A stretch of DNA of 64,000 nt from Rossellomorea aquimaris (lineage in GTDB: Bacteria > Bacillota > Bacilli > Bacillales > Bacillaceae_B), in assembly GCF_000935355.1 (NCBI RefSeq), contig NZ_JXZC01000001.1, forward strand, positions 1 through 64,000, read 5' to 3'. This document shows, one piece after another, positions 1 through 64,000 of this stretch (positions within the stretch are counted from its first letter, which is position 1; each line of letters begins with the position of its first letter). Under the pieces are notes generated by a model. The model was not told the DNA's origin, ran no database searches, and saw nothing but the letters and a program-made list of their open reading frames with translations. The position numbers and the translations under genes are program-made.

Positions 1-90
1 TAAGTCAAACATGCCAAAAAGGCCAAAAACGCCTTTCCGGCATGTTCGCCTTATGCTTGTCGCCTCTGGGCAAGCCGCCTCCGCTTTTCG
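1..90. repeat. Dispersed structured repeat, left copy (truncated by window edge)
   Basis: This is the right-hand part of a repeat also found at 12392-12431 and 63831-64000. It contains a perfect nested hairpin: AACATGCC at 8-15 pairs with GGCATGTT at 39-46, and AAAGGC at 18-23 pairs with GCCTTT at 31-36. Bases 51-90 match the 12392 copy at nearly every position. The 5' outer arm lies outside the window. No coding function is apparent. The rest of 91-225 holds only the gudB promoter and leader. Confidence 0.8.
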
Positions 91-7457: not shown

Positions 7458-7497
7458 AGGGACGGACCTCAGATATTGAGGTCCGTCCCTATTCTTT
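7458..7497 (+). terminator. Terminator after sleB-ypeB
   Basis: A perfect 13-bp stem, AGGGACGGACCTC with GAGGTCCGTCCCT, around a 7-nt loop. The T run behind it is interrupted (ATTCTTT). Confidence 0.75.
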
Positions 7498-12226: not shown

Positions 12227-12373
12227 GTTTTGGATATTTTTGTAAAACGGCTGGATTATGCCATGATCCGGCTGGATTTTTGTTCAAAGCGGCCGGATTC
12301 CAGACCATTTCCGCTGGATTTTCATTTAAAACGGCCGAATTAAATAGAATTTCGGCTGGATTATTGTTTGCCC
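12227..12373. repeat. Seven tandem 21-bp units
   Basis: Six units of exactly 21 bp start at 12248, 12269, 12290, 12311, 12332 and 12353. Each opens with a variant of CGGCTGGATT. A seventh, degenerate unit at 12227-12247 keeps GGAT in register. Because 21 is divisible by three, the array leaves reading frames open on both strands (a 14-residue NPAE-type repeat on the minus strand), but none has a ribosome site. It is most likely non-coding. Confidence 0.85.
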
Positions 12374-12391: not shown

Positions 12392-12431
12392 GTATGCTTG
12401 TCGCCTCTGACCAAGCCGCCTCCGCTTTTCG
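12392..12431. repeat. Dispersed structured repeat, 3' fragment
   Basis: Forty bases nearly identical to positions 51-90 and similar to 63952-63990: the TATGCTTGTCG block followed by AAGCCGCCTCCGCTTTT. The 5' half of the element, and hence the hairpin, is missing. It lies between the 21-bp array and the stop codon of ypzI. Confidence 0.75.
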
Positions 12432-47455: not shown

Positions 47456-47463
47456 CTCATTGG

Positions 47464-47650
47464 GCAGTATCCTTGGAACTGCACCCTTTGCACGTTCAGC
47501 ATTTTAATACAAATTTCTGCCTTGATCCATTGCGGACTGGGACAGAGGGTCGAAACAATGATACTAAACACTTATGATCCTTCTGTCATTTATTCAGGAG
47601 GTTTTTTCATTTCTGTTATGAAAGTGCTTTCATTGCGTTTCGTCACCTCT
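47464..47650 (+). ncRNA. Structured leader of panBCD (candidate pan-motif RNA)
   Basis: Three hairpins can be drawn in the leader: GCAGT/ACTGC (47464-47482), GACAGAGGGTC/GATCCTTCTGTC (47541-47587) and GAGGT/ACCTC (47598-47649), which encloses a perfect ATGAAAG/CTTTCAT stem at 47618-47633. A conserved RNA called the pan motif is known upstream of panB in Firmicutes. I infer this leader may be one, but I cannot confirm its consensus bases by eye. Confidence 0.35.
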
Positions 47651-59218: not shown

Positions 59219-61939
59219 TTATTCTTGATCTCTTCTGGATTCTGATTGGGTGGCAGGTGCACCATTCGTGGCGCCATCTCCAGTACCTGAGCCGTCACCA
59301 GTGCCGTCTCCAGTCCCATCTCCGGTTCCGGTGCCATCTCCAGTGCCGTCATCTGTACCTCCATCACCGGTCCCATCTCCTTCAGGTGGAGGAGTAGTGC
59401 CTTCGTCGTCACCAGTGTCTTCACCTCCACCAGTATCTTCACCACCACCTGAATCTTCTCCATTTCCATTTCCTTGACCATTCCCATTTCCTTGACCGTT
59501 ACCATTTCCATTGTTGTCTTGATTTTCATCATTGTTTTCATCCTGGTTTTCTTCATCTTCACCATCAGTAGCCTTAACATCAACATTAACCGTTGCAGGG
59601 TTACTGCGCTGATCTCCTGAAATTGCTACAACCTCAAAGGTGAAAGTTCCTTGGGATTGAATGTTTTCAACATTTAATCCCTTCTTATCAGTTGTTGTTA
59701 ATACTTGTTTCGCTTCACCATTTATTGAAACCGCCACTTCAAACTGAACGTCCTTTTCTTTACCATAATCCCACGCAAGAGTAATGGTTTGATCTTTCTT
59801 ATTGTATTTACCTTTCAGATTTGAAGGAGAATCAATCTTGTCGAATTCCTGTGAAACCTTGGAAGGTTCCGTTCCACGGACGAAGAGCTCCGTGATTATC
59901 CGGTCATCCGGCGTGTATTCACTTGGTAGTCTTGCCGGATTGCTTCCTAGTTCAACTTTGGATTCAACGACGCTGTCTGGCTTTTTAAAGTCAGGTGTGT
60001 CAACTCCATCGTGAACATAGCTCATCAAGTCACTGACGATGTATTGTGATACTCTTCTATCCCTAGGTGATAGTGGTATGGAGCGAGTCTTATACCCCGT
60101 CCAAACAGCCGCTGTATAGTTTGTCGTATAGCCAACAAACCATGAATCAGGTGCGTCTGTCTTAGCAATTCCGTATTTCTCGCGTTCCTCTTGAGAATAG
60201 TTCGTCGTACCTGATTTCCCTGCCATCGGTAAACCTGGCACCTTGGCATAAAGCCCTGTTCCTCTAGGATGATCAATAACGCTCTGCAGCATATCAGAAA
60301 TCATATAAGCTGTGTATTCTTTCATTGCAGGTTTTGGTTTGTTATCATTTTCAATCTCTGTTTCACCATCGCGTAATACCACTTTTGTAACTGTATGGGG
60401 CTTGTTGTAAATTCCTTCATTACCAAAGGCGGCATAGGCACCTGCCATTTGGACGGAGTTTACCCCGGGAGACACACCACCGATTGAAGCAGATTCATAA
60501 TAGTGATCGAATTTTAATCCGAGACCATTGACAAATTCCTCTGCTTTCTCTGGACCGACTTCCTGAAAGGCTTTTAGGGCAGTAATATTTCGAGAATCCC
60601 AGAGGCCCTCACGTATCGTGATAGGTCCCTTAAATTGACCATCATAGTTATTGAGTTCTGTTCCATCAGAATATTTATAAGGCTCATCTTTTAAAATATG
60701 ATACGTCGACCATTTTAAATGTTCGATTGCAGGTGCATAGTCTATTAATGGCTTGATCGTAGACCCGGGCTGACGTTTTGTATCGATCGCAAAGTTAAAT
60801 CCACGCTGAACGTTTGGATCCTGTTCTCTGCCGCCGCCAATCGCCCTGATTTCTCCAGTTTTCGTATCCATAAGGGTTACCCCGGCCTGCATTGGCTCTT
60901 CAGGATTCTCCGGATAACTGAAGCTGGTATTTTCACCTGCTAAAATTTCTTCCAGACGTTTTTGAGCATCCGGGTCAACAGTTGTATAGACCTTTAAACC
61001 GTCTGAGAATAGGTTGTAGTCACCCATTTTCTGTACTTCATCAATAACAGCATCCACAAAGGCGGGATATTTGTTTCCGTTTTTCTTTTCAACTTCTTCA
61101 GCTGAAACCAATCCTTCAGTGATTGGAACCGCTTGTGCTTTCTTTTTCTCTTCTTCATTGATTTTACCGTGCTGCTCCATTAAAGATAGAACGATATTTC
61201 GTCGCTTTTCCGCTTTTTCAGGGTATTTAAAAGGGTTGTAATTGTTCGGGCTTTGAGGCAGTCCGGCAATCAGGGCCGCTTCATGAAGCTCAATGTCTTT
61301 AATGTCTTTACCGTAATAGTAGTCTGCAGCGGTAGCCATACCGTTAATTCCAGCGGACATATACACCTTATTGAAATACATCTCAAAGATTTCTTCTTTT
61401 GTATATTCCTGCTCAAGCTTAAGAGCCAGCCATGCTTCTTGAGCTTTTCTTTTTAACGTTTTCTCAGGGCTTAAAAAAGATCCCTTGATTACTTGCTGGG
61501 TAATTGTCGAAGCACCTTCTGAACCGAAACCACCTGTTACATTGGCAATGACGGCGCCCCCTAAACGAATCAAGTCGATTCCGTTATGTTTATAGAATCG
61601 ATTGTCTTCTGTAGCAAGTACCGCATCTTGCATCACCTGAGGGATGTCATCGAAGTTTGCGTACTCCCGTTTCTCTTTTCCAACTGTGGTGATTAAGTCT
61701 CCGTTCATATCATAAATTTCAGATGCAATCGGATCCTTTAATAATTTTTCATCAAGCTTAGGGGCACTGGATGCATAATAAGCAAATAATCCAGCGCCAG
61801 CAAGCATCCCGATAATACCGATGATAAATAATGATATAATGACGCGCTTAACCAAAGAGCCCTTTTTCTTGCTCTTTGTCGATTTTGACTTTTGTTGGGC
61901 CAGGCGTTTTTCTTCCCTTGACTTATATTGTCCAGCCAT
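59219..61939 (-). CDS. ponA: Penicillin-binding protein 1A/1B, class A
   Basis: A bifunctional peptidoglycan synthase. The 906 residues comprise a basic cytoplasmic tail, a membrane helix (about 33-56), GT51 transglycosylase (about 70-245, catalytic E111 in ATEDNRFY), and transpeptidase (about 350-640) with STIK at 393-396, SRN at 449-451 and KSGT at 575-578. A fibronectin-III-like domain (about 703-789) follows. The last 115 residues are low-complexity Asn/Gly/Asp/Glu/Thr with GNGQ and GDGTGDGT repeats. GAGGAAA precedes the ATG at 61939. It follows recU in the same transcript. Confidence 0.95.
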   Translation of the reverse strand: MAGQYKSREEKRLAQQKSKSTKSKKKGSLVKRVIISLFIIGIIGMLAGAGLFAYYASSAPKLDEKLLKDPIASEIYDMNGDLITTVGKEKREYANFDDIPQVMQDAVLATEDNRFYKHNGIDLIRLGGAVIANVTGGFGSEGASTITQQVIKGSFLSPEKTLKRKAQEAWLALKLEQEYTKEEIFEMYFNKVYMSAGINGMATAADYYYGKDIKDIELHEAALIAGLPQSPNNYNPFKYPEKAEKRRNIVLSLMEQHGKINEEEKKKAQAVPITEGLVSAEEVEKKNGNKYPAFVDAVIDEVQKMGDYNLFSDGLKVYTTVDPDAQKRLEEILAGENTSFSYPENPEEPMQAGVTLMDTKTGEIRAIGGGREQDPNVQRGFNFAIDTKRQPGSTIKPLIDYAPAIEHLKWSTYHILKDEPYKYSDGTELNNYDGQFKGPITIREGLWDSRNITALKAFQEVGPEKAEEFVNGLGLKFDHYYESASIGGVSPGVNSVQMAGAYAAFGNEGIYNKPHTVTKVVLRDGETEIENDNKPKPAMKEYTAYMISDMLQSVIDHPRGTGLYAKVPGLPMAGKSGTTNYSQEEREKYGIAKTDAPDSWFVGYTTNYTAAVWTGYKTRSIPLSPRDRRVSQYIVSDLMSYVHDGVDTPDFKKPDSVVESKVELGSNPARLPSEYTPDDRIITELFVRGTEPSKVSQEFDKIDSPSNLKGKYNKKDQTITLAWDYGKEKDVQFEVAVSINGEAKQVLTTTDKKGLNVENIQSQGTFTFEVVAISGDQRSNPATVNVDVKATDGEDEENQDENNDENQDNNGNGNGQGNGNGQGNGNGEDSGGGEDTGGGEDTGDDEGTTPPPEGDGTGDGGTDDGTGDGTGTGDGTGDGTGDGSGTGDGATNGAPATQSESRRDQE

Positions 61940-62766: not shown

Positions 62767-63804
62767 ATGAAAAAATCCAGCAATACTTATCGCTTTTTAC
62801 CCTATATACCTGAACCTAAACGTACAAATGAGTGGATTCATGAAATCAACCATTTAGTGTATCTGCACAATCAAGATAATATATCAAGAACGATGGCTTA
62901 TCAAAAATTTTTCCTTCTTCATCCGGAAATAAAATGGTCTTTTCTGGCTTCGATGGTCTCAAGGAATGCCGGATGGAATATGACGGACTTAAAGGGTGAT
63001 ATCTTTCCGCGCCTTTTACATCCCGCGACTCGCGATGCTCTATTTATGACGTACGAAAGAGCGAACTGGAGTATTTTTCAGGATGCCTTTCCCCAGCTCC
63101 TTCTTTATCATTATTCGACGAGATATAAGAAGAAAATGTTTCATTTGTCTAAAGAATTTCATATTTCAAGCTTCATGGAAGAAGAGTGGAATCGTTACTG
63201 GGAGGAGAGAGACGACCACAGATTGGTGCATTCACTAATTATTAATGAGCAGCACCTCATTCAAGAACCAGTCATTGACCATGAGGTTTATAAGAAGAGG
63301 GTGTTTGGCTCATCTCTATTTTTCATAGAAGATCATCTGCATTTCAGCTCCGTACTATTTCCTACATTAGAGGGAGAGCTTTTAGGTGCGAGTGTCCATG
63401 GCTTCAGAAAGATCGAAAACAGAATCCAGTTAGGAAATCGATTATTTAAGATTTTATTTCAACCTGATTACCATTCTTCCTTTTTGAATTTCGCTTTACA
63501 AGTAGAGCATTCAGGATCTAGAAAGGACTACGAACAGTTTTGCAAAAGTGCGCCCAAAACGAATACGCCAATGCTCCATCAGGCTTATGTATATATTCCA
63601 CACCATTGGAGGACCCATATGGACTGGTCGATTCAAAAAGATATTGATAAGGAATGGTATCAAGAGCTAAAACTTCCCGATAAAATCGAATTATCGCAAT
63701 GGTATTTTCGTAAGCAAAGGCAGCTTGAGAAAGTGGCAAACATAAAAGGTGTATTCACAAAGATTGGTAAGTGGAGGGGAAAGAAGAAGAGACCAACGCT
63801 TTAA
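62767..63804 (+). CDS. yppC: DUF2515 protein YppC
   Basis: A 345-residue soluble protein of the DUF2515 family, in the same place as B. subtilis YppC, divergent from recU. It is rich in aromatic and basic residues and has no signal peptide (PYIPEPKRTNEWIHEINHL at the N terminus, split by proline-rich loops). The function is unknown. Its stop codon is within the loop of the terminator hairpin. AGTGGAGAAAGGGG lies upstream of the ATG at 62767. Confidence 0.85.
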   Translation: MKKSSNTYRFLPYIPEPKRTNEWIHEINHLVYLHNQDNISRTMAYQKFFLLHPEIKWSFLASMVSRNAGWNMTDLKGDIFPRLLHPATRDALFMTYERANWSIFQDAFPQLLLYHYSTRYKKKMFHLSKEFHISSFMEEEWNRYWEERDDHRLVHSLIINEQHLIQEPVIDHEVYKKRVFGSSLFFIEDHLHFSSVLFPTLEGELLGASVHGFRKIENRIQLGNRLFKILFQPDYHSSFLNFALQVEHSGSRKDYEQFCKSAPKTNTPMLHQAYVYIPHHWRTHMDWSIQKDIDKEWYQELKLPDKIELSQWYFRKQRQLEKVANIKGVFTKIGKWRGKKKRPTL

Positions 63805-63828
63805 AATAGCGTCGGTCTCTTCTTTTCA
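63785..63828 (+). terminator. Terminator at the end of yppC
   Basis: AGAAGAGACCAACGCT pairs with AGCGTCGGTCTCTTCT (one mismatch) and is followed by TTTT. The loop contains the yppC stop codon. Confidence 0.85.
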
Positions 63829-63830
63829 TG

Positions 63831-64000
63831 TTGTCGGGTCCGAACGAGCCGCCTCCGCTTTTTTATTAGGCCAGCTCCGGCGGCTAGACCCTCGAGGTCA
63901 TAAGTCAAACCACCCAAAAAGGCAAAGAACGCCTTTCCGGGGGGTTCGCCTTATGCTTGTCGGGTCTGAACGAGCCGCCTCCGCTTTTTTATTAGGCCAG
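63831..64000. repeat. Tandem copies of the dispersed structured repeat, right end
   Basis: The 44 bases at 63831-63874 recur at 63957-64000 with one change, a period of 126 bp, so the window ends inside a tandem array. Between them is one complete long hairpin (63879-63979): GGCGGCT/AGCCGCC, AGACCC/GGGTCT, CATAAG/CTTATG, AACCACCC/GGGGGGTT (one mismatch) and AAAGGC/GCCTTT, in nested order. No open reading frame fits it. Confidence 0.85.

Follow-up and report, generated by a model that had tools for sequence, protein, structure and literature searches.

The DNA considered here, which we call the window, is the whole stretch of 64,000 nucleotides that opens contig C1 of the 4.3-Mb genome of Rossellomorea aquimaris. 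Its last letters, 63831-64000, are the left end of a tandem array (C1:63831-64491) made up of one 5'-truncated unit and then five full units, with the period near 126 bp that the original prediction had claimed. The array begins just 3' of a terminator-like hairpin, and at its far end the final unit adjoins the stop codon of a 36-aa minus-strand ORF (L031:2491-2601). Dispersed copies had also been reported at both ends of the window and at 12392; these exist, although at 12392 just a residue of a unit's 3' part is left. The features are as follows.

62767..63804, plus strand: upstream gene, a 345-aa ORF with its 3' end towards the array
63779..63827, plus strand: terminator-like hairpin with a T-run, overlapping the end of the upstream gene; perfect by the look of its sequence
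63831..63862, minus strand: opening 5'-truncated unit of the array, a partial profile match equal to the 3' part of the plus-strand unit
63863..63870, no strand: linker between the truncated unit and unit 1, from the linker and flank list for L031
63871..63988, minus strand (the structured strand): full unit 1, a covariance-model match of 133.7 bits
63989..64000, no strand: linker and first bases of unit 2; four more full units lie beyond the window, up to contig position 64491
12393..12429, plus strand: isolated 5'-truncated unit remnant (3' part)
1..88, plus strand: 3' unit part severed by the contig start, C1 starting at window base 1; model match C1:1-53

On the minus strand, unit 1 reads 5'-AAAAGCGGAGGCGGCU...GACAAGCAUAAG...CUUAUGACCUCGAG...GGAGCUGG-3'. 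The linker at 63863..63870 recurs between the later units and resembles the flank that follows the last of them (TTTTTATG...). Two other repetitive stretches were noticed in the window: an imperfect 42-bp tandem repeat (GCTGGATTTTTGTTCAAAACGGCCG...) at 12271-12368, directly 5' of the remnant at 12393, and 18-bp tandem repeats at 59410-59509, in the 3' portion of a large ORF that resembles penicillin-binding proteins.

Copies within and beyond the genome

The unit is about 118 letters long, folds as one long hairpin and lies between genes. Our manual count for its own genome, with 150 of 1181 candidates scored, gave at least 101 covariance-model matches, some of the weaker ones being antisense echoes of the palindrome; 85 are full length at 85 bits or more. 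Profile searches of selected stretches resolved about 40 arrays of one to five units each, and simple motifs allowing at most one mismatch occur 78 times for the 5' half (control 0) and 99 times for the 3' half (control 7).

A DNA search found the repeat in 42 of 61 relatives. With the covariance model at E <= 1e-4, 147 of the 199 genomes sampled from the order have matches, as do 72 of 97 genera; the order is named as Bacillales from named records, the E-values are rough, and the 18 candidates scored per genome make the per-genome copy numbers lower bounds. By our own count, the best match reaches 1e-10 or below in about 129 of the 199. A pattern scan of named genomes gave, among the matches listed, mostly Rossellomorea, with some Bacillus and Metabacillus.

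None of 50,697 phage records and one of 72,556 plasmid records carry the repeat, and a link to phages or plasmids was rejected on these counts: the home of the family is practically chromosomal. The single plasmid record is 690 kb long and has sporulation genes such as dpaA; labelled a plasmid, it begins inside a unit (L356, NZ_CP089998.1:1-3122) and has the appearance of a chromosome fragment whose break lies in the repeat.

Fold and covariation

The counts of pair types, the comparison of the strands and the figures for fold retention by gene setting given below use 118-nt units only, units of other lengths (127 of 341 distinct units) having been dropped. Placed on the model structure of 40 pairs, the window unit has 36 Watson-Crick pairs, 3 G-U pairs on the minus strand and 1 mismatch. 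Fold z-scores are -3.00 and -3.42. Across 38 diverse units of the genus, read on the minus strand, 94.5% of cells pair and double changes occur at 31 of the 40 pairs; covariation is 0.480, against 0.163 in shuffled alignments and at most 0.159 in slid ones. In other families (37 matches from 20 loci, in an alignment that had been fitted to the covariance model), 93.2% of cells are paired, 36 of the 40 pairs show double changes, and covariation is 0.601 against 0.172 shuffled and at most 0.114 slid. In each set none of 500 shuffles, which take no account of relatedness among the units, reached the observed value. Some columns carry all four Watson-Crick pairs (42/72), and pairing includes the ends of the unit, which pair mutually (helices 1 and 2, 92-97% of cells), as well as the unit as a whole. 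Orthologous units at two loci show the same sort of double change between species.

The covariation between copies that the original prediction had proposed is therefore borne out, within the genus and in other families. Its particulars hold as well: AACATGCC/GGCATGTT at 8-15/39-46 in the left copy stands against AACCACCC/GGGGGGTT in the right one, two pairs have changed on both sides, and the third position pairs in one of the two copies and is mismatched in its counterpart. The stems said to nest perfectly from 63879 to 63979 are correctly placed, because the full unit is 63871-63988 and the outer pair of the 7-bp stem (columns 9/109) falls at window 63879/63979, but to call them perfect is generous: the plus strand has conserved A-C and pyrimidine mismatches.

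At the second of the loci compared below for empty and filled sites, two relatives (L293 and L282) have chimeric units in which the lower stem joins arms of two types and its pairing is lost, which points to recombination within the conserved stretch CTCGAGGTCA.

Agreement this close invites the question of whether the arms of a plain DNA palindrome might simply be kept matched by template switching or gene conversion, with no function of the single strand. Watson-Crick agreement at the variable pairs is indeed very high, and the chimeric units speak of frequent recombination. The deciding evidence comes from a comparison of the two strands.

The structured strand

Because point mutations fall on either strand, G-U and A-C mismatches would be expected in equal numbers if neither single strand were under selection. 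Over all 40 pairs in 214 units, minus-strand letters give G-U 660, A-C 53, G-A 140 and C-T 25; the 37 matches from other families give G-U 71, A-C 7, G-A 60 and C-T 2. As a control, 29 SAM-riboswitch sequences of the same genus, read on the sense strand, give G-U 46, A-C 2, G-A 2 and C-T 1. In plus-strand letters, the pairs that are at least 70% Watson-Crick have 48 G-U and 144 A-C, and at three positions (37/77, 46/68 and 47/67) a plus-strand A-C is conserved in 161, 176 and 179 of 214 units, respectively. Nearly every unit has G-A, in minus-strand letters, at the facing unpaired columns 6/112 and 8/110, and the minus strand is the better folder in 212 of 213 units (mean -61.6 vs -52.8 kcal/mol).

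The evidence points to the minus strand as the one that is structured and selected, opposite to the plus-strand folding of the original prediction. Matching by template switching or conversion would be strand-symmetric, yet G-U over A-C and G-A over C-T favour the minus strand by 12:1, 10:1 and up to 30:1, and the three A-C positions are conserved; we therefore consider the plain palindrome very unlikely. A stricter reading of the near-perfect Watson-Crick pairing as a matter of DNA only was dropped, the level of minus-strand G-U being like that of a riboswitch. Transcription-coupled mutation bias could add to the G-U excess but presumably could not conserve three wobble positions. What the asymmetry leaves, as far as sequence comparison goes, is a minus strand that may act as RNA or as single-stranded DNA.

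Placement relative to genes

Placement was scored for 132 arrays with distinct right flanks, from the own genome and the named loci, with ORFs of at least 80 aa taken as neighbours; arrays with identical right flanks were counted once here and in the linker, truncation and orientation counts. Seventy-three lie between co-directed genes of their own direction, 26 between convergent and 15 between divergent genes, and 18 run against both genes, so that the orientation relative to genes, which had been proposed for checking, is biased: where both genes share a direction, 73 arrays run along them and 18 against. One array adjoins a tRNA (L157).

When an array faces the 3' end of its right-hand gene, the stop codon is 1-7 nt away in 34 of 44 cases. 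These 34 amount to 18 different genes, because orthologous loci recur, and the 36-aa ORF beside the window array falls outside the 44, because ORFs below 80 aa were not used as neighbours. The idea that stop codons as such are targeted was rejected, empty sites having terminator T-runs a few bases from the stop codon; nearness to stop codons follows from compact gene ends, in which terminator T-runs lie close to the stop. Among 133 first units of arrays, 15 stand directly after a T-run of at least five, 56 after a truncated unit recognised by profile and 30 after a short remnant recognised by pattern.

Such placement would suit a structured RNA useful to the host, its minus strand being transcribed as the 3' UTR of the abutted gene or from some other promoter, its role that of an mRNA stabiliser, a processing site or a protein-binding site, and its spread incidental. 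The stop codons abutted in 34 of 44 arrays, an RNA-like strand asymmetry that matches the riboswitch control, and compensatory changes between orthologous units of related species all argue for this, as does the statement, in the part of PMC3446304 consulted, that about half of the bcr repeats in B. cereus are found in transcripts. Against it, the minus strand is antisense to both neighbours in 73 of the 132 arrays and keeps its fold there equally well (96.5% paired in 72 units, compared with 93.8% and 97.0% in two sets of 16 units each after a stop codon), and empty orthologous sites are common. A fold kept equally well in both settings favours a role in the spread of the repeat over one in a neighbouring mRNA; action in that mRNA alone is unlikely to be what chiefly maintains the fold, and the host RNA as a whole seems to us, on present comparisons, unlikely.

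Gene ends are also where one would look for a transcription terminator cassette, a plus-strand hairpin and then TTTT, and the plus strand does end in a GC-rich arm and a T-run. A three-base (3x3) internal loop and a three-pair stem, however, separate the GC arm from the T-run, many arrays follow a terminator that already exists, and the selected minus strand has no terminal T-run. The terminator option of the original prediction accordingly loses ground, since the arrays usually come after a terminator or older unit already in place, and the strand under selection is not the one that a terminator would need; we hold it to be very improbable indeed.

Insertion sites and linkers

Empty and filled versions of the same site can be laid side by side. 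At a first locus, the empty site reads GGGCCTGTTTTTTATGGTTTTAAAATTT (G029) and the filled one ...TTTTTTATGTGTCTGC, then the unit, then TTTAGGTTTTAAAATTT. At a second, the empty CTTTTCTTTTCTTATTGAATA (G029) corresponds in G016 to TTTTCTTATTG, a TCC unit, TTTTCTTTG, another TCC unit and TTTTCTTTCTTATTGAATA. By locus, L248 and L250 are empty and L246/L247/L249 filled at one, and L288, L284 and L289 are empty and L276/L277 and others filled at a second; at the window locus itself, L232, L235, L237 and L242 are empty and other relatives filled. At the window locus, L226 and L227 keep only the truncated unit, a state best explained by deletion between direct repeats.

We read the empty and filled pairs as a probable duplication of a T-rich target of about 5-11 bases. 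In 98 arrays, the start of the linker agrees with the array's own right flank over a mean of 3.41 bases; shuffled flanks give 1.56, and none of 5000 permutations reaches the observed mean. The common stretch is of variable length and above chance; beyond the T-run, no bases are shared in 10 of the 98, one in 5 and at most two in 36. Arrays near locus ends or containing N were excluded from these counts and from those of truncation, and arrays at orthologous loci are not independent. The nearest empty relatives at the first locus (G029 and G013) sit among filled relatives of 90-92% identity, and so their empty state may be a precise loss rather than a site never filled.

Single units were also seen at one and the same nested position in another hairpin repeat (L132 near 6062, L142 near 2992, L185 near 6866 and, in reverse, L211 near 6795), with ...GTGAGACYTGTCC on one side of the unit and TTTTCTNCCCRCAGG... 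on the other. Some of these nested units have an altered inner loop, CACATGTC / GCCACCCG, and the outer repeat stays below every Rfam gathering score.

Array architecture

Multi-unit arrays have a consistent shape: the first unit is 5'-truncated in 64 of 107, the last is truncated in 1, and an inner unit is truncated in 1, a split chimera. Single units are full in 30 cases, 5'-truncated in 3, 3'-truncated in 1 and truncated at both ends in 2, counts in which isolated 5'-truncated units are missed because the named loci were found by the 5'-half pattern; the motif counts for the own genome are free of this bias. Of the 22 two-unit arrays, 16 have a truncated unit closest to the last unit and 5 have one closest to the first (p = 0.027). 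Arrays of three to six units have no such preference, the last alone being best in 4 of 17 and the first alone in 4 of 17.

One way to picture these shapes is an element that copies itself from one end, its arrays laid from a fixed plus-strand 3' end (the minus-strand 5' end) with a variable stop. The template could be a circle of one or two units, copied by the rolling-circle route, or alternatively an RNA, circular or tandem, copied by target-primed reverse transcription. Copying of this sort would explain the truncated first units, the head-to-tail arrays, the T-tract target with its uneven duplications and the greater likeness of the truncated unit to the last one where an array has two units. 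Yet arrays of three or more units lack the last-unit preference, erosion of old left ends could produce truncations, and the retrieval pattern misses isolated truncated units; we regard one-ended copying as rather doubtful. The number of units varies at orthologous loci of related species, and the ongoing amplification suggested in the original prediction is plausible to that extent, with recombination losses accounting for part of the variation.

Comparison with known elements

In the window, the only Rfam 15 match at threshold is a pan motif (RF01749, 65.9 bits) at 47461-47549, upstream of a panB-like gene, and no family falls on the repeat. At 20 loci from other families there were 5 matches at the gathering score, none on a unit; at 8 loci there was 1, an L19 leader off the unit; and at 5 further loci searched at E<=1 the best match on a unit had 32 bits against a gathering score of 82. 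Neither HEARO, which had been suggested for comparison, nor any other Rfam family thus has a gathering-score match on the unit at the loci examined. In the genome of another family, a Bacillaceae-1 RNA (RF01690) lies at L323:2445-2511, 34 bases from a unit. A CRISPR-like array was rejected, the whole unit being conserved and the linkers being 8-15 bases.

Group IIC introns and other terminator-targeting elements insert behind terminator hairpins with T-runs. The repeat is like them in its place of insertion and unlike them in that ribozyme domains and a reverse transcriptase are not seen in the unit.

The system closest in kind to the repeat is bcr1, from the group A elements (bcr1-bcr3) of the B. 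cereus group. Its length is about 150 bp. The sections consulted of PMC6542083 and PMC3446304 describe bcr1 as a short intergenic repeat of tens of copies with features of a mobile element, often in UTRs and tied to a T-rich TTTAT motif that may be repeated, and those of PMC2267715 tabulate its length as 147/167. Both elements are short, intergenic, present in tens of copies and associated with T-rich sequence, a likeness of description; in the part of PMC6542083 covered, bcr1 is restricted to the B. cereus group, whereas the repeat is found in 72 of 97 sampled genera. Bhal-1 of B. halodurans, given as 74 bp and 36 copies in PMC2267715, could be a relative.

Among the bacterial MITEs, those named in PMC3733652 include ERIC, NEMIS/Correia and RUP. 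The repeat resembles MITEs in being non-coding, with inverted-repeat ends, a location at gene ends and a probable target duplication (here of variable length), and differs from them in its fixed T-tract orientation, its long arrays with a 5'-truncated first unit and its strand-specific structure.

REP and REPIN elements, as PMC3733652 has them, are palindromic, dispersed, extragenic and sometimes tandem, and so is the repeat. That it is a REPIN moved by a RAYT (Y1) transposase would fit a hairpin dispersed at gene ends, and RAYT-like proteins are present in 57 of 61 relatives. But the unit is one long continuous hairpin of 118 nt and not evidently two short inverted REPs of the kind tagged GTAG or CGTC, and both Y1 genes of its own genome are flanked by other palindromes; none of the 101 model matches lies within the 5-kb stretches around them. 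A RAYT partner was rejected for the own genome, neither of its 2 Y1 genes being flanked by the unit, and on that evidence REPIN movement strikes us as very unlikely. The two genes (L222:1866-2459 in C43 near 105.6 kb and L223:1996-2559 in C12 near 345.8 kb) encode RAYT-like Y1 proteins of 197 and 187 aa, each with its own palindrome family beside it (TGAGGGACGGACCTCT/AGAGGTCCGTCCCTCA and the TGTACCTGGTACA type), and have the look of a pair of REPIN-RAYT systems within one Bacillales genome. Words of the form GGGACGGACCT, one pair of them inverted, occur in the window at 7459-7489, 22303 and 44770, and the same kind flanks the C43 gene.

Four stretches of the unit had no match in open-licence PMC papers, where absence is not absence in print, and the portions covered of PMC8632094 and PMC2864571 hold no description of the repeat. 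The repeat thus has no gathering-score match in Rfam 15 at the loci examined and no description found in the open-licence PMC literature.

Discussion

We lean, with modest confidence, towards a small non-autonomous mobile element family of the Bacillales that is selected as its single-stranded minus form. A unit of about 118 nt, with its linker, would enter T-rich stretches at the ends of genes in a single orientation, behind an intrinsic terminator or an earlier unit and beside stop codons or promoters, duplicating roughly 5-11 bases of the target. Repeated insertion, then unequal recombination, would build head-to-tail arrays with a period near 126. When single-stranded, as RNA or ssDNA, the minus strand would form the long hairpin with its conserved G-U pairs and G-A loops, and this fold would be selected, most likely through recognition by a trans-acting enzyme or protein. 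The copies and their distribution, the covariation, the strand asymmetry, the placement at gene ends, the empty sites and the turnover of units are observed directly; that transposition causes them, that the linkers arise by target duplication and that whatever mobilises the repeat recognises its fold is what we infer.

The spread across the order, the empty sites, the sharing between linker and flank, the single orientation, the frequent abutment of a stop codon, the double changes at most pairs and the asymmetry towards the minus strand all favour a mobile element. Against it, the target duplications are ragged, the nearest empty relatives may be precise losses, the compensatory changes seen between orthologous units could indicate a use for single copies in place, and a transposase, integrase or reverse transcriptase is not linked to the family. 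Of the three options in the original prediction, a miniature mobile element is the best fit, given the empty sites, duplication-like linkers and orientation-specific sites; its structured RNA stands insofar as one strand carries the structure, with data equally compatible with single-stranded DNA.

If the mobile-element reading is true, the family would be among the most widespread small repeats of the Bacillales, absent from Rfam 15 and with covariation far above its controls. The repeat matters for assembly, because arrays sit at contig ends in the draft genomes here (window base 1; NZ_CP089998.1). Strand asymmetry of the kind used above is a simple means of telling which strand of a palindromic repeat is selected, and the fixed end and ragged end of the arrays make the copying mechanism directly testable. 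The protein that reads the hairpin, once found, would give a way into the movement of such elements.
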